A stretch of 39,489 nt of DNA, from assembly GCA_947444925.1 (NCBI GenBank), contig CANFBW010000028.1:1-39489 (forward strand), written 5' to 3'. Within the stretch, counting starts at the first letter, position 1, and every line of letters starts with the position of its first letter. The position numbers were made by a program, and so were the translations under genes. The notes under the pieces are model-generated. The model did no database searches. It was not told the origin of the DNA and saw nothing but the letters and a program-made list of their open reading frames with translations. Shown here piece after piece: positions 12,625 through 24,065 of this stretch. Origin of the DNA: Flavobacteriales bacterium (GTDB taxonomy: Bacteria; Bacteroidota; Bacteroidia; Flavobacteriales_C; GCA-002722245).

Positions 12625-14619
12625 TCAATACGCCTGCAAAGCCTTCAGCTTTTCAACCAGGCGTGATTGCGCCAAAAACTGTTTCTCTAAGTCGGCTTGA
12701 AATGGAACAGGGCTATCGAGGCTCGCCACGCGCATGACTGGTGCGTCTAAACTTTCAAAACAATTTTCAGTAATCAGCGCGCTGATTTCCGCACCAATTC
12801 CACCCATCAGGGTATCTTCGTGCAACACCAAAACTTTAGCACATTTTCTAGCACTTGCAAAAATGGCCGCTGTATCCAAAGGCATTAAGGTGCGCAAATC
12901 CAGTACGTCTGCAGAAATACCAGTTTCTGCAACAGCCTGCAAAGCCCAATGCACGCCCAATCCATAAGTAATGATGGCAATTTCATTTCCTTCTTGCACC
13001 AAAGCAGCTTTGCCGATGGGCAAAGTATAGTAACCATCGGGCACTTGTTGTACACTGCTTCTGTATAGCGCTTTGTGTTCAAAATACAACACTGGATTTG
13101 GATCTTCGATCGCCGCCAACAATAAGCCTTTCGCGTCATATGGAAATGCTGGATATACAATTTTAAGTCCGGGCACATGAAAAAACCAAGCCTCATTGCT
13201 TTGGCTGTGAAAAGGTCCGGCCGCAACACCTGCGCCCGTAGGCATGCGAATCACCACATCGGCATTTTGACTCCAACGGTAATTGCTTTTCGCCAAATTA
13301 TTCACGATTTGATTGAAGCCACAAGTGACAAAATCAGCAAACTGCATCTCCACCACCGACTTCCAACCTTTAATGCTCAAACCCATAGCAGCGCCAATAA
13401 TTGCTGATTCACAAAGAGGCGTATTTCTGATTTTTTCTTTGCCGAATTCAGCCAAAAAACCTTCTGTTACTTTAAACGCGCCGCCATACTCGGCGATATC
13501 TTGGCCCATCAACAGCAAGTTGCTGTGCCTGCGCAAAGCTTGTCGCAACGCATCACTCACCGCATCAATATAACGCAATTCCGAGCTATTGCTTTCGGGC
13601 ATTGAAATCACTGCATTGTGCGCCGCGTAAACATCGGCCAATTCGTTAGCACAGTCGGGCACAATATCTGCTTCGTCCATCACCTCTTGCACAGCAGCGG
13701 CAATTTCTTCTTTTATTTGCTGGTGCATGGCAGCGTTGTCTGCAGCGCTAATGATACCTTCTTTCAATAAAAATGCTTCGTAATTGAGAATGGGATCTTT
13801 GGTCGCCCATTCGTCAAACAAGGCTTGCGGAATGTACTTGGTACCCGATGCTTCTTCGTGTCCACGCATGCGAAAAGTGCGACATTCCACCAAAATCGGT
13901 TGCGGATTCTTGCGCACTTTCTCTGCAATTTGCACAAAAGTGTGGTATACCTCTAAAACATTGTTGCCGTCTATAGATATGCCTTCAATGCCGTACCCTT
14001 GCGCTTTGTCAACAAAACTGGCATTCAAAAACTGCTCTTTCGAAGGCGTTGACAAGGCATATCCATTGCTTTCAACCACAAATATTACCGGCAATTGCCA
14101 CACGGCTGCAACATTCAATGCCTCATGAAATTCACCTTGACTGGCACCGCCATCGCCCGTAAATACAAGCGTTGCTTTTTTTTCTTTATTGAGTTTACAA
14201 GCCAATGCAACACCGTCGGCCAGCGACAACTGAGGCCCCAAATGCGAAATCATGCCCACAATGTGAAATTCATTGGTGCCAAAATGAAAGGAGCGCTCAC
14301 GCCCTTTGCTAAAGCCAGAAGCCTTGCCTTGAAATTGTGCGAAAAGTCGATTGAAAGGAATGTCTCTTCCTGTAAAAACACCTAAATTGCGGTGCATTGG
14401 AAAAATATATTCATCGCTGCGCAAAGCTTTTGTTGCGCCAACTGAAATGGCCTCTTGACCGATGCCCGAAAACCATTTTGAAATTTTACCCTGACGCAAG
14501 AGCACTAACATTTTCTCTTCAAAAAGTCGCGGAGTAAGCAAACGTCGGTAAAGGTTCAGCAACTCTTCGTTAGAGCTGTTGAGGCGCTTAAAATCCAACA
14601 CCGGAAGTGCGGCATTCAT
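12625..14619 (-). CDS. Fused alpha/beta 2-oxoisovalerate dehydrogenase E1
   Basis: Thiamine-diphosphate-dependent E1 of the branched-chain 2-oxoacid dehydrogenase complex, which decarboxylates 2-oxo acids from Val, Leu and Ile and loads the acyl group on the E2 lipoyl domain. In 664 residues it joins an alpha subunit (about 1-325) and a beta subunit (about 345-664) that are separate in many bacteria. The ThDP motif runs from GDG at 155-157 to Asn185 in VVESNGYAL. The alpha loop has FRMRGHEEAS, and the beta half shows GQDIAEYGGAFKVTEG, FADFVTCGFNQIVN and VLHEDTLMGGIGAE. Such fusions are common in Bacteroidota. The start overlaps the preceding stop by one base (TAATG). No E2 or E3 gene is in the window. 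Pyruvate as the substrate is less likely but not excluded. Confidence 0.93.
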   Translation of the reverse strand: MNAALPVLDFKRLNSSNEELLNLYRRLLTPRLFEEKMLVLLRQGKISKWFSGIGQEAISVGATKALRSDEYIFPMHRNLGVFTGRDIPFNRLFAQFQGKASGFSKGRERSFHFGTNEFHIVGMISHLGPQLSLADGVALACKLNKEKKATLVFTGDGGASQGEFHEALNVAAVWQLPVIFVVESNGYALSTPSKEQFLNASFVDKAQGYGIEGISIDGNNVLEVYHTFVQIAEKVRKNPQPILVECRTFRMRGHEEASGTKYIPQALFDEWATKDPILNYEAFLLKEGIISAADNAAMHQQIKEEIAAAVQEVMDEADIVPDCANELADVYAAHNAVISMPESNSSELRYIDAVSDALRQALRRHSNLLLMGQDIAEYGGAFKVTEGFLAEFGKEKIRNTPLCESAIIGAAMGLSIKGWKSVVEMQFADFVTCGFNQIVNNLAKSNYRWSQNADVVIRMPTGAGVAAGPFHSQSNEAWFFHVPGLKIVYPAFPYDAKGLLLAAIEDPNPVLYFEHKALYRSSVQQVPDGYYTLPIGKAALVQEGNEIAIITYGLGVHWALQAVAETGISADVLDLRTLMPLDTAAIFASARKCAKVLVLHEDTLMGGIGAEISALITENCFESLDAPVMRVASLDSPVPFQADLEKQFLAQSRLVEKLKALQAY

Positions 14620-14813
14620 TATTTTTGTATTGAATCGGCAGCAAGAGTATCACCTGCTTCGGCAGCCATTCCCTCTAACTCCTTTTCAAAATCATCATCG
14701 AGCTTAATTGTTTCGCTTTCTACTTTTTTCTCGTGTTGCTCTAGCTCTTCAGCCGATGGACCACAAGCAAAAAAAAGAGTTGCCAAAATGGAAGTGTAGA
14801 ATATTTTTTTCAT
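14619..14813 (-). CDS. Tiny acidic lipoprotein of unknown function
   Basis: This 64-residue product begins MKKIFYTSILATLFFACGPS, a lipoprotein signal with Cys17 as the lipidation site. The remainder (about 47 residues) is strongly acidic and Glu-rich, helix-prone and without Gly-rich or aromatic patches. A longer reading from an ATG at 14837 would add MYFKISVC, but it would begin within the last codon of the upstream gene and weaken the signal peptide, so 14813 is preferred. Its TAA overlaps the ATG of the E1 gene. I recognise no family. Small size and the acidic tail suggest an envelope accessory peptide, with no evidence for a specific role. Confidence 0.68.
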   Translation of the reverse strand: MKKIFYTSILATLFFACGPSAEELEQHEKKVESETIKLDDDFEKELEGMAAEAGDTLAADSIQK

Positions 14814-14836: not shown

Positions 14837-15766
14837 TTATTGTGCAATGGCCTGACCAATCACTTTAAATTCACCTTCCATGGAACGAGCCCACATGCGG
14901 CCAGATTTGTCAACGCCATAGCGCTGATTGTTTTTTTCAAAAAACCAATCGAAACCCAATTTGTTTGACAGAAGTTTGTAGCCTACAATGGTGGCTCTGC
15001 CCTTCACATCAATAAATATTTGATCAGCAGCATCTACCTTGTAGATCAATGAATCACCAGCGATAATCACCTTGTACACCACGCGTTGAGAGCCGTGAAA
15101 CTCCACCATATTTATTTTTGATTTTTTGTTGCCCATTGTTTTTTTAGCCGTCGCAGCAACCTTATCAGGCGTTTTCACCAATGGCGCATGCAGCGTTTTG
15201 GCCTCCTGCCACCCTTCGGTTAGTGCTGCTTTACGCACCGCAAACAAAGGCGCTTGGGTAACACTGTCCTCTTTTGAACTCTCTTCTAAGGCCGACACTG
15301 CATCTTGAAGCGAAGCGCCCATTTTGTACAAAACAAATCCTGCATTTTTATCGGCATCTAAATTTTCTTCGTCACTCGCCACTCCACCTTGCAATTTATG
15401 CTTCGCAAGGTGATGACTGATTTCTCTTGCCAAAATACTAATGCCAGTCCAATTGGTATCATTTAGCGCTTGCTTTTGTAATTTTTCAATGAAATCAGGA
15501 TTGTAGGCAAGCAGTCTTTCATTATTGGCAATGTAAGCCTTGGCCTTTTCAACATCGCCTGGAACAAAGGTAAAGTTAGGCATCAACTCCGATTCACGCA
15601 CTACATTGAGCACCGTTTTATAGGCAACAATGTCTTGCGACAAAGTGCTGTCTTGTTCCCCAGTCGATGCAGAAACAACTGTATTTTCGCTAGCGACAGC
15701 ATCGTCATTGGCGCAAGAAAAAAGCGTCAAAGAAAACGCTGCAAAATAGAGAATAGGTTTTACCAT
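14837..15766 (-). CDS. Lipoprotein with degenerate M48-like metallopeptidase motif
   Basis: A 309-residue predicted lipoprotein, whose signal ends LTLFSC with Cys18. Residues about 85-155 resemble the M48-type metallopeptidase core found in Bacteroidota lipoproteins: a helix ISILAREISHHLAKH at 109-123, where HExxH would be expected, then ENLDADKNAGFVLYKMGAS, matching the usual ELEADKFAGF segment. Here the first zinc His is Arg114, and the third-ligand Glu position is Asn135; Glu115 and His118 remain. Proteolysis is therefore doubtful. The C-terminal 100 residues form an unrecognised beta-rich domain with Tyr- and Lys-rich strands. ATG 15766 is used because the ORF extending to 15880 lacks a sensible N-terminus and overlaps the divergent yqgE. 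The small lipoprotein gene follows after 23 nt. Confidence 0.7.
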   Translation of the reverse strand: MVKPILYFAAFSLTLFSCANDDAVASENTVVSASTGEQDSTLSQDIVAYKTVLNVVRESELMPNFTFVPGDVEKAKAYIANNERLLAYNPDFIEKLQKQALNDTNWTGISILAREISHHLAKHKLQGGVASDEENLDADKNAGFVLYKMGASLQDAVSALEESSKEDSVTQAPLFAVRKAALTEGWQEAKTLHAPLVKTPDKVAATAKKTMGNKKSKINMVEFHGSQRVVYKVIIAGDSLIYKVDAADQIFIDVKGRATIVGYKLLSNKLGFDWFFEKNNQRYGVDKSGRMWARSMEGEFKVIGQAIAQ

Positions 15767-15845: not shown

Positions 15846-16403
15846 ATGAAGCCGTCAAGAATAGAACAAGGAAAAATCATCGTCGCCGAACCATTTTTGC
15901 ACGATCCCTACTTTAAAAGGGCGGTTGTTCTTTTTGTGGAACACTCCAAACAAGGCACCATGGGCTTCGTGATTAATGCACCGTCCAACATTAAAGTGTG
16001 CGATGCCATTCAAGATTTTCCAAAGGTTGATTTACCTGTTTTTGTGGGCGGCCCAGTTGATTCTGACATTATTTTTTATGTTCACAACTTAGAAAAACAA
16101 ATACCCAACAGCACCAAAATACGAAGTGGCATTTTTTGGGGTGGTGATTTCGCGGCAGTGCAACAACTGGCAAGAGAAAACAAGCTCAACAACGACAACA
16201 TTCGATTTTACATGGGCTATGCAGGTTGGGGGCCTGCACAAATTCGTGATGAAATGAAAAAACAATCGTGGTTTTGCTACTCCTGCAAGAAAGATTATGT
16301 ATTTCACAAAGCACCGCGCCGACTGTGGGGCCAAATATTGAAAGACAACAATTCTCCATTTTCGGTTTTGAGTAACTTCTCCGACACTCCTTCGTTGAAT
16401 TGA
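15846..16403 (+). CDS. YqgE/AlgH family protein
   Basis: A 185-residue cytosolic protein of the YqgE/AlgH family. Conserved features are GKIIVAEPFLHDPYFKRAVV near the N-terminus, EHSKQGTMGFVIN, FVGGPVDSD, and GYAGWGPAQIRDEMKKQSW. Members are widespread, have a solved fold and are linked loosely to transcription or alginate regulation in Pseudomonas, but no biochemical activity is established. Length and ends are normal. It is divergent from the M48-like gene (79-nt gap, where I see no good TAnnTTTG element on either strand) and precedes the PKD adhesin by 58 nt, so it might be read through into that gene. Confidence 0.93.
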   Translation: MKPSRIEQGKIIVAEPFLHDPYFKRAVVLFVEHSKQGTMGFVINAPSNIKVCDAIQDFPKVDLPVFVGGPVDSDIIFYVHNLEKQIPNSTKIRSGIFWGGDFAAVQQLARENKLNNDNIRFYMGYAGWGPAQIRDEMKKQSWFCYSCKKDYVFHKAPRRLWGQILKDNNSPFSVLSNFSDTPSLN

Positions 16404-16461
16404 TCTATACATAAATCAACTAGAAAGCAGAGCTTTCCAATGGTTTTTGTGCAGCAATAAA

Positions 16462-19400
16462 ATGACTTTTAAAAAGCCATATCTATTTCTTTTTTTCGCA
16501 CTGAACATCAGTGTGTTAACACTATTTTCACAACCCACCTGTGATTTTAGTGCCGACAAATCAAAGGGTTGCGCTCCCGTTTTAGTAAAGTTCACCAACC
16601 TTTCAAGCGCAAATGCAACGAGCTATTCGTGGAGCTTTGGCAACGCCGGAACCTCCACTGCAAAAAACCCCTCTTTTCTTTTTGCAAGTCCTGGCATTTA
16701 CAACGTAACACTAACCGCTACCAACAATCAAGGCAGCGCTAGCAAGAGTTTCATCGTGCCAATATACGCAGCGCCCAATGTTGATTTTGCAGCCAACAAA
16801 ACCGATATTTGCGGCTTTACGCCCATTACCTTCAGCGATCTATCGACACCGCAATCGGCCAACATCAACAAGTGGTTGTGGAGCTTTGGCGATGGTCTTT
16901 TCTCCAATGAGCAACACCCTGTTCATCAATATGCAAAAGAGGGAAAGTTCAGTGTTTACTTGCAAATTGAAGATGACAATCAATGCGCCAATACCTACAC
17001 CCTACAAGACCTTATTACGATCAACCAACCTGCAGCGCGTTTTGACGCAGACACTTTCGTATGTGCGCTCCCTGCTGCGCTTCAATTCAACAATCGATCA
17101 ACAGGAACAAAGCTGAGCTACAAATGGAATTTTGGGGACGGCGGCACCTCCACCAGCGAATCACCCAAACGCTATTACAACAATTACGATACTGTACAGG
17201 TATCTTTAGTGGTGCAAAGTGAGGGCTCAACATGCATTGACTCAATTAGCAAAACATTGCGCATCACCAACTACAAAACCGATTTTGACTACACGGTGCA
17301 GTGCAACGGACAAAAAGACTTCAACATTGATTTCACTAATAAAGCCATGCCCAGTGCGGCATCCAATATTTGGGATTTTGGCGATGGCGACACTGCAATG
17401 AGCATCAACCCTACCCACAAATTCGCTACCAAGGGCAACTACAACATTCGACTCATTAGCCGATACAACAACACGTGTATTGACACCGTAATTCAAAATT
17501 ACACCAGCCCCAATGCACAATTCAGCTACCCTGACCTTGCCTGCAAAGCGCCCTTTACCGTCAATTTCATCAACCAAAGTTCGGGCAGTCAATTGACACA
17601 CCATTGGTCTTTCTCCAATGGACAAAATTCAACGCAAACCAATCCTGTACAAACTTTTGTGGTGCCTCCAGCAAAAGCCAATGTAATATTAACAGAGAGC
17701 AATCCATGGGGCTGCAGTCACAGCGACACCACCGACATCTACTTTCCAGTTCCCGTCGCTGGCATCCGCATCGATACACCAAGCAGCGGCTGTGCGCCCC
17801 TGGGCGTAACATTCAAAGACGAAAGCACCTCTTACGGCTCACCCATTGTCAAGTGGAATTGGAATTTCAGCGATCCTTCGTCGGGTGCACTCAACACCTC
17901 ATCGATTCAAAACCCTGCGCACAATTTTCTCAACACGGGCCAGTACAACATTAGCTTAACGGTTGAAAATGCTAAAGGCTGCACCCACACGAAAACTTTG
18001 ATAAAAGCGGTGCGCATTGGTGAAAAACCCAGCTCTGCGAACTTTAGTACAGATGCCGACAGTGTGTGCTTTCATTCCACCCATCAGTACAACGATTTAA
18101 CGACATACAGCCATCCTTCTACCAAGTCGAATTACTGGTGCTGGGCAATGTATCAAAATGGCAATAACTTACTCGACGGCAGCGGCCATTTGCCAGAAAG
18201 CTGTCCCGACTCTGGCTTTTACCGCAGCTACAGCGATTGGGTTGCCATACCCAACCCTTCTCACAATTACGAAAAATGGAACAGACATACCAACACCTAC
18301 AAGAACGACACCCTTTGGGCGCATAGCGCGCAGCCAGTAAGCGGTGCTTTTTACGTGCACATGATCGTAGGCAACAACGGCTGTTATGCCGAAGTAAAAA
18401 AACCAGTATTTGTCAAAGGAAACATGGCCATGCCCAACTACATCTTTCCCAGCGGCGAAGTGAGTTTAGGTGCTTGCAAACCTCCCTTCACCATTGGCCT
18501 ATACAACGGTTCGTACGATTGGAACAAGCTCAATTATTTTAATGTAACCAAAGTAGGAACCAACGACACCATTGCCAAAATAAAAAGCAAAGACACCACC
18601 TATGTCACCATTACACATTCGGGCATCTACGACATCAACATAAGTACCACAAACAGTGCCGAAGGCTGCACCGACAATACAAAGCGCATCATTAGGGTTG
18701 ATTCCATTATACCTCAAAAAAGTGTTCCAGCATCGGTTTGCGCAGGCGTGAAAGCAGAAATGATCAACTTCACCAAAAGCACCCTGGGCTACATGAACAA
18801 TTACATGTGGGACTATGGAGATTTAACCACACTGGGAGGGCCTGGCGCAGACAGCACTAACAAAATTTACCCTGATACTGGCCGCTACGTTCTCACTATT
18901 TCAGCTACTGCACAAGTGCCATACAACTACATTAGCACCTCAGTGACTACTTTTAAAAGTTGTGAAACATCGCAACGCGACACCATTTATGTGCAAGGCC
19001 TCAAAGCAAAATTTGGAAGCACAAAAAACGATTTCTGTGTTGGTGATTTAGTGCCTTTTCTTGACTCTACAAATAGTACTTCTGCAATCACAAATAGACT
19101 GTGGCGCTTTGGTGACAAAAGCACTGCCAGCGCTAAACAAAGCAGTCACCTTTACAAAACTCCCGGCACCTACGATGTGCAACTGTTGCTTCAAAACAGC
19201 TACGGCTGCAAAGACTCTATATTGAAGAGCAATTACATCAGCATTAGTAAACCCAACGCGAATTTCAGCAGCACTAAAAACATCGGTTGTATTGGCGAAA
19301 GTGTAAAATTTATCAATCAATCTTCGCCCACTGGTGCACTGACGTACAAATGGAAATTTGGCCTAGGCGACAGCTCTACGCTCAGTAATCCTTCCATAAT

Positions 19401-21027
19401 TTTCAACACGGCAGGACTGCACGACGTAACGCTATACACCTTTAACAATAAAGGATGCAGCGACACCATCGTCAAAAAAAAGGAAATAGATATCGCTAAT
19501 TTACCTATTGTAAATTTTAGTGCCGATGCACTCAGCGCCAACTGCTCTCCCTTTTTAGTGTCCTTTTCCGACTCTTCAAAAAGTGACATACAATCGTGGG
19601 AGTGGGACTTTGGCGATGGCAATACCAGCAATGAAAAAAATGCCATCAACAACTTTACACATCCCGGAAAATTCGATGTTTCTCTGCGTGTGCGCAATGG
19701 CAACGGCTGCTACAACACCGACAGCAAAGCAAAATACATAGCTGTAAAAGGACCTTACGGTGAATTTGCGCTCAGCACCGATTCGGGTTGCGTGCCGCTT
19801 AATGTGCGCTTTGATCAAAACTTTTCTGGTACCAATTTTTATGTTTGGTACTTTGGAGATGGCAGCATTCAGAATTACAATTTCGCCCTCAAAAAAGATT
19901 CAGTTTACCACAACTTCGCGAAGCGCGGACTGTTCGCTTCCTTTGTTGAATTAATTGATTCAAACAATTGCTCTAGCAAACTGATCGCACAAAATATTCA
20001 TGCAGAAAAAGTAGAAAGCGATTTCAGTATTAGCGATTCTTTGCTTTGCCATGTAGGCAATGAGCAGTTCATCAATACTACCAAAAGTGCATTTACGTTG
20101 ACCCATCATTGGACTTTTGGAGACGATAATTTCAGTAACAATGAAAGTCAGCTGCACGCATACACCAAACAAGGAAAGTACAACATCACGCTTGTGAGCA
20201 ACAGCAGCATAGGTTGCAGCAACAGCATTACAAAAAAAATAAAAATATACAAGGCCCCATTCTTAAAAATAGACACCCTCAACAAATCCTTTTGTGTGCC
20301 CTTTGCGCTACAACTCAAAGCCATCAACATTGATCCATCAGTGCATATTGACAAACTCTATTGGCAGCACAACAACAGCAAAAAGGACTCCACCTTTGCT
20401 GCTTTTGCAATCAATTCTGCTGGACCACAAAATTTTCACTTGATGGTCAACTATGGCGAAACTCTCTGCAACATCGACTCCCTGATTGCATTGCAAACCT
20501 ATGATGCTCCACGCGCAAACTTCAACATCACACCTGAACACCCTTCGGTAAACAGCGCCGTTTATTTCGACGATCAATCAGACAACAGCACGGCATGGTA
20601 TTGGAAAATTGGCGACGGAAGCAGCTCTGACAAGTCCCACCCTGTTGTCAACTATGACAAGAATGGCGAATACAACGTAACTCTATATGCCTCGAATGCT
20701 GGAAATTGCGTGGATTCCATCAGCAAATCCTTAACCATCTCCACAGAAAATTTCGTGAAAGTAGTTTCGGGATTTACGCCCAATGGAGACGGCATCAACG
20801 ATGTGGTTAAAATTTTGAATGCAGGAGAAATGAAGTTGGTCGACTTTAGCATTTACAACAGATGGGGACAAATGATTTTTCAAACATCCGACTTGCAACA
20901 ATTTTGGGATGGCACCTACAACGGCAGTTTGCAAAGTGAAAGCACTTTTGTTTATTACGTGAAAGCCATCAATAAAAAAACAGGTATGGAAATTTCACAA
21001 AAAGGAAACATAACATTGATCAAATGA
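16462..21027 (+). CDS. Large PKD-repeat surface adhesin with type B T9SS sorting domain
   Basis: This 1521-residue protein starts with a signal peptide (about 1-24, ending LTLFSQ). Most of its length is a string of PKD-type beta-sandwich repeats, each with a WxFGDG-like core and a following GxYxVxL strand. I count about 13 clear copies (for example WLWSFGDG, WEWDFGDG, WYFGDG) and two or three divergent ones, with a Cys-rich non-canonical insert at 18040-18420. The last 80 residues (GFTPNGDGINDVVKI, then IYNRWGQMIF and WDGTYNG) are the gliding-motility-associated C-terminal domain (type B sorting signal), which directs export through the type IX system. ATG 16462 is preferred to an in-frame TTG at 16447. 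PorP/SprF and OmpA genes follow. Binding partner unknown; SprB-like roles in adhesion or gliding are possible. Confidence 0.92.
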   Translation: MTFKKPYLFLFFALNISVLTLFSQPTCDFSADKSKGCAPVLVKFTNLSSANATSYSWSFGNAGTSTAKNPSFLFASPGIYNVTLTATNNQGSASKSFIVPIYAAPNVDFAANKTDICGFTPITFSDLSTPQSANINKWLWSFGDGLFSNEQHPVHQYAKEGKFSVYLQIEDDNQCANTYTLQDLITINQPAARFDADTFVCALPAALQFNNRSTGTKLSYKWNFGDGGTSTSESPKRYYNNYDTVQVSLVVQSEGSTCIDSISKTLRITNYKTDFDYTVQCNGQKDFNIDFTNKAMPSAASNIWDFGDGDTAMSINPTHKFATKGNYNIRLISRYNNTCIDTVIQNYTSPNAQFSYPDLACKAPFTVNFINQSSGSQLTHHWSFSNGQNSTQTNPVQTFVVPPAKANVILTESNPWGCSHSDTTDIYFPVPVAGIRIDTPSSGCAPLGVTFKDESTSYGSPIVKWNWNFSDPSSGALNTSSIQNPAHNFLNTGQYNISLTVENAKGCTHTKTLIKAVRIGEKPSSANFSTDADSVCFHSTHQYNDLTTYSHPSTKSNYWCWAMYQNGNNLLDGSGHLPESCPDSGFYRSYSDWVAIPNPSHNYEKWNRHTNTYKNDTLWAHSAQPVSGAFYVHMIVGNNGCYAEVKKPVFVKGNMAMPNYIFPSGEVSLGACKPPFTIGLYNGSYDWNKLNYFNVTKVGTNDTIAKIKSKDTTYVTITHSGIYDINISTTNSAEGCTDNTKRIIRVDSIIPQKSVPASVCAGVKAEMINFTKSTLGYMNNYMWDYGDLTTLGGPGADSTNKIYPDTGRYVLTISATAQVPYNYISTSVTTFKSCETSQRDTIYVQGLKAKFGSTKNDFCVGDLVPFLDSTNSTSAITNRLWRFGDKSTASAKQSSHLYKTPGTYDVQLLLQNSYGCKDSILKSNYISISKPNANFSSTKNIGCIGESVKFINQSSPTGALTYKWKFGLGDSSTLSNPSIIFNTAGLHDVTLYTFNNKGCSDTIVKKKEIDIANLPIVNFSADALSANCSPFLVSFSDSSKSDIQSWEWDFGDGNTSNEKNAINNFTHPGKFDVSLRVRNGNGCYNTDSKAKYIAVKGPYGEFALSTDSGCVPLNVRFDQNFSGTNFYVWYFGDGSIQNYNFALKKDSVYHNFAKRGLFASFVELIDSNNCSSKLIAQNIHAEKVESDFSISDSLLCHVGNEQFINTTKSAFTLTHHWTFGDDNFSNNESQLHAYTKQGKYNITLVSNSSIGCSNSITKKIKIYKAPFLKIDTLNKSFCVPFALQLKAINIDPSVHIDKLYWQHNNSKKDSTFAAFAINSAGPQNFHLMVNYGETLCNIDSLIALQTYDAPRANFNITPEHPSVNSAVYFDDQSDNSTAWYWKIGDGSSSDKSHPVVNYDKNGEYNVTLYASNAGNCVDSISKSLTISTENFVKVVSGFTPNGDGINDVVKILNAGEMKLVDFSIYNRWGQMIFQTSDLQQFWDGTYNGSLQSESTFVYYVKAINKKTGMEISQKGNITLIK

Positions 21028-22112: not shown

Positions 22113-24065
22113 ATGAGAAAAATAATATGCACATATTGTTTCTTAGTCCTGCTAGCTGCCAATCAATTGTTGGCGCAGCACAAAAGCACTTTGGTTAAAA
22201 TCGCCGAAATCGCCTATAGCGATGGCAATTTCTACCATTCGATTGATTTGTACAATGAGGAATTGAAAAAAAATAAAAGCAATGCCTATGCCTTGCAACA
22301 ACTTGGACTTTGCTACCAAAAAATTGGCGATTTTACAGCAGCAAATACTTGCTTTAAAAAATTGTACGCAAGCAATGACAAAGATTGTCCGCTTGCAGAA
22401 TACTATCTGGCAATGTCGCAAAAAACCCTTGGCGAATACGCTGTCGCAAAAGAACATTTTGACAATGTGAAGAAAACATACAAAGGCAACAACCAATCGT
22501 ATTATACAGCAAAGGCCAAAGACGAAAGTAAAATTTGCACCATCGCCCTAAGCGCAACCGAAAGAGCAAATGTGTTCATCAATTTGCTCCCCCCCTCCGT
22601 GAACAAACGCTACAGCGAACTGTCGCCCACTGTGTTCAACAATATGCTGGTGTTTTCAGCGCTATCTTCCGACACCTTGTTGTCTATAGATGAAGAAGCA
22701 CCAACACCAAAAAGTAAATTTTACTATATTGAATTGAACGACAGTTCTGCCTCGCCAAAATTATTTTTGCCTCAGTTTTTCAACGAATACAAACATGATT
22801 TGGTAGACATTGACTTTTCTACCGACGCGCAACGCATGTATTTTACCTTGTGTCAAAAAAATAGCGATGGCAAAGAAATTGCGCAAATTTACGGCAGTGC
22901 GAAAGAGGGCGTGAACTGGGGAAAAGCAGTAAAAATGGGAGATTTAATAAACGATCCTTCGGGACTCTACACTGCCATTCATCCCGCCTTGGGATGGGAC
23001 AGCAAGAGCAAACAAGACATTTTGTACTTCAGCTCCGATCGTCCGGGCGGCAGTGGCGCCCTGGATCTATGGTACGCCGAAATTGATGCGCAATTCAGCG
23101 TTGATGGAGTATACAATATGGGCCGAAAATTCAACAGCGTTGAAAATGAAATCACGCCCTTCATCGACAGCCAAACTGGTCATTTGTATTTTTCATCCAA
23201 TGGACTCGACGGCCTTGGCGGTTACGACATATTTATCGCATCAGACAAAGGGAAAAACTTCGACAAACCCAAAAACATGGGCAAACCTTACAACAGTTCT
23301 TACGACGATTTTTACTTCAGACATTCGGCTAAACAAAACGGATATTTTGTTTCCAATCGCATCAACGTTCAAAAATCAAATTGCTGCGACGATATATTTT
23401 CATTTCGAAAAGAAGACAAAAAGCACTTCAACTTCAGTGCAATAAAAAAAGTAAACGACAGCACCGAGCAAAACATCAACGGCGTTTCCTTTGTGTTTTT
23501 TCATGACAAAGACACGGTGATGGCGCAGTACGGAAAAACTTACAGCTTGCCCACCACCGACAGCATCACAGTGCTTGCATTGAAAAATGGCTACATTCAA
23601 AACTACCGCAGTATTGCCCTGCGTTCGCTCAAAAATGACACCTCACTATTGGTGATGAAGATGGAAGAAATTAAACTAAATCAAGAATACCGTCTCAACA
23701 ACATTTTTTTTGATTACGACAAAGCGACGCTCACTTCCGCCTGCATTGGCGAACTAGAGCGCTTGCGAAATTTCATATCAGAAAACCCCGATGTTTTGAT
23801 TGAAATCGCTGCTCACTCCGACAACAAAGGTGCTGCCGACTACAACCTCAAGCTTTCGCAAGCGCGCGCAAAAAGTGTAGTCGATTACCTCGTGCAAAAA
23901 GGAATTCCGCAAGAACAATTGGTGGCAAAAGGTTATGGTATGACCGTGCCAATAGCCTTTAATACAACACCCACCGGCGAAGACAATCCTGAAGGACGAC
24001 AACTCAACCGACGCATTGTGTTTAAAATAATTGGTCCATTCAAAACAGAACAAGATGAAAAATAA
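22113..24065 (+). CDS. TPR/PD40/OmpA-domain protein (PorE-like)
   Basis: A 650-residue exported protein. A signal peptide (about 1-21, ending NQLLAQ) is followed by TPR-like helices at about 25-135 (NFYHSIDLYNEELKK, ALQQLGLCYQKIGDF), then a PD40/WD40-like propeller region at about 160-430 with the repeats YFSSDRPGGSGALDLWYAE and YFSSNGLDGLGGYDIFIA, a carboxypeptidase-regulatory-like stretch at about 440-530, and a C-terminal OmpA domain at about 535-640. The OmpA domain has the peptidoglycan-binding GRQLNRRIVF signature. This domain order matches PorE of the type IX system. It likely anchors the PorP/SprF partner to the cell wall. It starts immediately after the stop of that gene and overlaps the following gene by 11 nt. 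Confidence 0.92.
   Translation: MRKIICTYCFLVLLAANQLLAQHKSTLVKIAEIAYSDGNFYHSIDLYNEELKKNKSNAYALQQLGLCYQKIGDFTAANTCFKKLYASNDKDCPLAEYYLAMSQKTLGEYAVAKEHFDNVKKTYKGNNQSYYTAKAKDESKICTIALSATERANVFINLLPPSVNKRYSELSPTVFNNMLVFSALSSDTLLSIDEEAPTPKSKFYYIELNDSSASPKLFLPQFFNEYKHDLVDIDFSTDAQRMYFTLCQKNSDGKEIAQIYGSAKEGVNWGKAVKMGDLINDPSGLYTAIHPALGWDSKSKQDILYFSSDRPGGSGALDLWYAEIDAQFSVDGVYNMGRKFNSVENEITPFIDSQTGHLYFSSNGLDGLGGYDIFIASDKGKNFDKPKNMGKPYNSSYDDFYFRHSAKQNGYFVSNRINVQKSNCCDDIFSFRKEDKKHFNFSAIKKVNDSTEQNINGVSFVFFHDKDTVMAQYGKTYSLPTTDSITVLALKNGYIQNYRSIALRSLKNDTSLLVMKMEEIKLNQEYRLNNIFFDYDKATLTSACIGELERLRNFISENPDVLIEIAAHSDNKGAADYNLKLSQARAKSVVDYLVQKGIPQEQLVAKGYGMTVPIAFNTTPTGEDNPEGRQLNRRIVFKIIGPFKTEQDEK

Follow-up and report, generated by a model that had tools for sequence, protein, structure and literature searches.

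The gene on the minus strand at 14837..15766 of the window (that is, the whole stretch of 39,489 nucleotides of Flavobacteriales DNA that was analysed) encodes a lipoprotein of 309 residues which has, in our estimate, about an even chance of being a pseudoprotease, one that would bind clients without cutting them. The lineage to which it belongs, in Bacteroidota, consists of secreted zinc proteases of the M48 type that have a beta domain at the C-terminus, and among these it would be a catalytically dead member anchored by a lipid. Given the ligands that have been lost, the protein probably does not hold a catalytic zinc and would not carry out proteolysis; as far as alignments can tell, the residues that determine the fold and the strand region preceding the catalytic helix are retained. 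Together with its orthologues, it forms a clade of eight proteins, three from the window's genus and five from a sister genus, within a single family of uncultivated Bacteroidota. The features of the locus are as follows:

14837..15766, minus strand: pseudoprotease gene encoding the 309-residue lipoprotein (P0001), an open reading frame whose lipobox start (MVK...LFSC) is common to three genomes of the window's genus.
15713..15766, minus strand: lipoprotein signal peptide with the lipobox LFSC; its Cys18, the putative lipidation site, is present in 8/8 clade members.
15488..15547, minus strand: strand pair preceding the catalytic helix (residues 74-93), kept, as judged by profile alignment with M48.
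15410..15427, minus strand: REISHH (residues 114-119), a degenerate HExxHH with Arg114 in place of the first zinc His.
15347..15364, minus strand: NLDADK (residues 135-140), a degenerate ExxAD with Asn135 in place of the third-ligand Glu.
15233..15253, minus strand: position of the HPx4R plug (residues 172-178), its His lost and Arg178 kept.
14840..15082, minus strand: C-terminal all-beta domain (residues 229-309), common to many active relatives, with eight strands predicted at modest confidence.
14619..14813, minus strand: tiny acidic lipoprotein of 64 residues, a neighbour only, present in G006 and G009, both of which lack the pseudoprotease.
15846..16403, plus strand: divergent YqgE/AlgH-like gene (PF02622), a neighbour that is the same in G007 and G008.

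The two motifs singled out by the initial annotation, REISHH at residues 114-119 and NLDADK at 135-140, occur exactly so in the translation of the 309-residue frame. An alternative start at 15880 (347 residues) was rejected because it overlaps into the divergent yqgE-like gene and is without the conserved lipobox start. The lipobox Cys is found in all eight clade members (some with non-ATG starts, judged by eye); of the active relatives, L038 and L096 alone resemble lipoproteins, the others having ordinary signal peptides where the start could be judged.

Descent from M48 peptidases does not emerge from standard domain searches: P0001 has no match in Pfam or NCBIfam and no M48 match at E-values up to 10, and none of the eight clade members matches Pfam M48 at E-values up to 1, all of them falling below the gathering cut-off. 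However, when 395 genomes across the class were searched with a profile of the clade, 31 that lie outside the family gave matches, and the relatives extracted in this way carry AHEIGHHLxGHT ... ELEADKFSGF ... THPxxxxR. The four active relatives that were scanned all exceeded the cut-off for Pfam Peptidase_M48 (23.5-37.5 bits versus 20.3), and the profiles of the clade and of the active relatives matched each other over both domains with 100% probability (E = 1e-48). Pairwise alignment of the clade profile with three ordinary M48 enzymes encoded in the window's genome gave an E-value of 3e-4 and placed Arg114 at the first His of HExxH, and Asn135 at the Glu of ExxAD. The M48 profile search that had initially been proposed as a check thus fails for the clade itself, but M48 descent, and with it the register of both motifs, is supported by the relatives above the cut-off, by the match between clade and relatives, and by the same-genome alignment. 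HExxH is also intact in 11 of 12 further open reading frames from a search of the phylum. Against the sequences of solved structures, the clade profile had no match and the active-relative profile only a chance-level ribosomal one, and no match to the clade profile was found among viral contigs. Three active two-domain members (L082, L083 and L085) are located on IMG/VR contigs filed as viral, possibly as host genes flanking prophages.

Structure prediction added little to the question of descent. Two AlphaFold2 models, built on few sequences, had pLDDT values of 57 and 50; in the former, based on a six-sequence alignment, 57 is the mean, the protease-domain helices lying at ~57-89 and the C-terminal domain of eight strands at ~65, and when this poor model was searched with Foldseek and VIA-align, the top matches included no M48 chain. 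Because the fold model is poor, M48 descent is supported by profiles and not by fold, and the geometry of Arg114 cannot be placed; nor does the model establish the lack of structural similarity to M48 that had initially been named as a ground for refutation.

In M48 enzymes, the zinc ligands are the two His of HExxH, a Glu of the next helix and a His of the active-site plug, whose HPx4R motif is conserved across PF01435 (PMC7950410). We read the corresponding columns from an alignment of 33 proteins, comprising the 8 clade members and 25 homologues from outside the clade. Position 114 is Arg in 8/8 clade members and His in 25/25 proteins outside, where HExxHH and the third-ligand Glu135 are likewise intact in 25/25 and His172 of HPx4R in 24/25. 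Within the clade, which represents all orthologues found among 10 genomes of the order, a usable HExxH occurs in 0/8, His172 is lost in 8/8 and the adjacent Pro in 7/8, while Arg178 is kept in 8/8. The initial annotation, which counted two lost zinc-ligand positions and had both of them in register, therefore saw only part of the loss, the plug His being gone throughout the clade as well.

What is left of the site differs between the two genera. All three members from the window's genus (the window included) read REISHH, with Glu115 kept and Asn at position 135, whereas all five from the sister genus read RQIGHH, with Gln115 and with Glu135 kept; as His118 is kept in 8/8, the window's genus retains one (His118) of the four zinc ligands of M48, and its sister two. 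Conservation of Arg114 and Asn135 among orthologues, an earlier suggestion for checking the assignment, is thus complete for Arg114 and extends for Asn135 only to the window's genus, and orthologues with intact HExxH and Glu ligands, the existence of which had been named as grounds against a pseudo-enzyme, are absent from the clade (0/8). Gly122, Thr124 and Ser142, which are (nearly) invariant in the active relatives, are also lost. Among the 30 protease-domain columns that are identical in at least 24 of the 25 active relatives, five of the six catalytic ones (His114, Glu115, His118, Glu135, His172 and Pro173) changed in at least three of the eight clade members, versus 5 of the 24 others (Fisher p = 0.009, a rough test in that clade members share ancestry).

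In a tree computed without the active-site columns, the eight proteins group on a single branch (support 100/100), the stem of which measures 1.1 changes per site. Reading frames are open in all eight, and the clade evolves under purifying selection, with dN/dS values (NG86) of 0.10-0.12 in the window's genus and 0.14-0.27 in the sister genus, synonymous sites being near saturation for most pairs. Taken together, the profiles, the ligand loss in 8/8 and the purifying selection support the original proposal of a conserved pseudo-enzyme of M48 descent, for which we, too, infer a binding or regulatory role. Columns that are invariant within the clade make up 10/15 of the catalytic helix, 10/18 of the third-ligand helix and 1/12 of the former plug loop, as would be expected if the cleft still had a job and the autoinhibitory plug did not.

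The protease family includes a further, separate lineage (L094, L098 in genome G570 and L099 in genome G736), from another taxonomic family, f89, that also consists of lipoproteins. L094 and L099 read AHMIAHH, the general-base Glu having been replaced by Met, and have YPx4R for HPx4R, and this form is kept in two species (84% identical). That a second lineage of lipoproteins lost both base and plug His hints that this fate recurs, but two independent events are too few to make the link between lipobox and loss a rule.

If the pseudoprotease binds clients without cutting them, its cleft and edge strand would continue to hold a segment of the client, extended or unfolded, at the membrane, the beta domain would set the choice of partner, and the mode may be like the non-cutting, chaperone-like one of BepA, such that an envelope client is held, delivered, or shielded from active M48 enzymes. 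Residues 74-93 are, by profile alignment, the counterpart of the M48 stretch VNAF.PGG.vvi.tGL, which comprises edge strand and substrate cleft, and Arg84 and Tyr88 of this strand pair are conserved also among the active relatives (at least 24/25). Besides being a protease, BepA acts in a chaperone-like way, and it binds its client LptD through the edge strand (PMC8423444). However, the protease-dead BepA variant E137Q is weakened in its chaperone-like function too (PMC8423444); a protein that has lost catalysis thus may not work as a chaperone, which counts against client binding as the best explanation. More speculatively, and with a low probability in our view, Arg114 might serve as a built-in cation replacing zinc, held by His118 and the one retained acid (Glu115 in the window's genus, Glu135 in its sister), such that a metal-free cleft would keep the shape and charge of the protease site as a permanent peptide-holding site. 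The losses are complementary in that Glu115 occurs with Asn135 and Gln115 with Glu135, Arg114 being present in 8/8, although with two genera this is possibly a coincidence.

The genomic surroundings do not point to a client: no conserved gene neighbour that would do so was found, and the locus differs between the two genera. In the window's genus, the order is yqgE, pseudoprotease, small acidic lipoprotein and then a two-part E1 dehydrogenase gene, and G006 and G009, which lack the pseudoprotease, keep the other three genes side by side. The small lipoprotein (CGPSAEELEQHEKK...) lies directly before the E1 gene in 5/5 genomes of this genus, pseudoprotease present or not. In the sister genus, the pseudoprotease is downstream of genes that we take, from reading sequences only, to be surE-, lpxB- and comEC-like, and yqgE is elsewhere in the three genomes in which it was found. 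The run with a tiny acidic lipoprotein that had been reported initially is real as far as adjacency goes (the two genes are 23 bp apart); functional pairing or coupling, in contrast, is not supported, the adjacency not being conserved, and since the small lipoprotein persists without the pseudoprotease, which in the sister genus sits elsewhere, we regard it as a neighbour and not a partner. Adjoining yqgE, at 16447-21027 on the plus strand, is a gene for a protein of 1526 residues, which contains numerous PKD domains and a type IX secretion domain (CHU_C); a homologue of this protein occupies the same place in G006, G007 and G008. Beside each pseudoprotease of the sister genus (loci L063-L067), two genes match parts of the window's 650-residue protein (22113-24065) at ~23-38% identity.

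The 10 genomes of the order contain no active member of the pseudoprotease lineage, which means that the protein does not act as decoy for a direct paralogue. It might nevertheless regulate a living M48 enzyme, with the dead copy pairing or competing with an ordinary envelope M48 and tuning it as inactive metallopeptidase subunits do, an explanation that we consider doubtful. The window's genome does have three other M48 genes with intact HExxH and THP motifs (four matches, two of which, at contig ends, are overlapping fragments of the same gene), one of them encoding a lipoprotein (contigs C105/C32) that would be a candidate partner, and inactive homologues that regulate active cousins are described in a review of pseudopeptidases (PMC11266112). 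However, no genomic link to these M48 enzymes was found, and the pseudoprotease's own lineage is without an active member there.

It is unlikely that the protease domain is a mere scaffold and that the C-terminal beta domain does the work, by binding or inhibition. This domain is kept in 8/8 clade members and in many active relatives, and its poor model weakly resembles small beta barrels, including the lysozyme/protease inhibitors PliC/MliC at Z scores of ~5, which offers a lead for its function in active and inactive members alike; but the Z scores of 3-5.6 lie within the tool's stated noise, and within the clade the helices of the protease domain are more conserved (invariant fraction 0.56-0.67) than the beta domain (0.28). 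The unusual metal chemistry raised initially is improbable. His118 and His119 would, together with Glu134, Asp139 or Glu115, have to bind a metal in a new geometry, and His118, His119, Glu134 and Asp139 are indeed invariant in 8/8; however, the fold accounts for the retention of His119 and Asp139, both of which are just as invariant among the active relatives (25/25), Gln has replaced the general base in 5/8, the plug His is gone, and the one or two M48 ligands that are left speak against the idea. Finally, the gene is dispensable, as two of the five genomes of the window's genus (G006 and G009) are without it, and within the genus it evolves faster than the neighbouring yqgE (~67% versus 83-85% identity), but that it is decaying on its way out is very improbable and already largely refuted by the open frames, the low dN/dS, Arg114 in 8/8 and its retention across two genera, and recent decay or a sequencing error is ruled out because three separate genomes of the window's genus carry identical substitutions and all five of the sister genus show the loss.

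Pseudoproteases as such are known, and are well described in eukaryotes; to our knowledge, they are little described among bacterial M48 enzymes. A literature search, which covered few subscription papers and is thus weak evidence, yielded no description of a bacterial M48 pseudoprotease, and the term M48 is absent from the pseudopeptidase review (PMC11266112). The clade shares its two-domain layout, ~28-38% identity and a 100% profile match with the active Bacteroidota homologues (e.g., L022-L031 and L082-L085), but these, unlike the clade, keep all M48 catalytic residues and, with few exceptions, start with an ordinary signal peptide instead of a lipobox. Compared with M48 enzymes (PF01435) and especially BepA, LoiP and YcaL of E. 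coli, the order of HExxH helix and ExxAD helix, the preceding strand stretch and the Arg of HPx4R all align, and the envelope location is alike; however, in the clade the first His, the plug His, and either the base or the third ligand are replaced, the scores stay below the Pfam cut-off, the spacing between HExxH and ExxAD is short (~16 residues), and there is a C-terminal beta domain and no TPR domain, which BepA has. With a whole clade that has probably lost catalysis, keeps its fold residues, carries a lipid anchor and has closely comparable active relatives, one can ask directly how the job of an M48 envelope protease divides between binding and cutting, a question that arises for BepA too. 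The proposed client-binding pseudoprotease would resemble the known metallopeptidase pseudoenzymes (ADAM, CPX, FtsHi and the M16 alpha subunits; PMC11266112), in which zinc ligands and base are lost, the fold is kept, and the role is one of binding or regulation.
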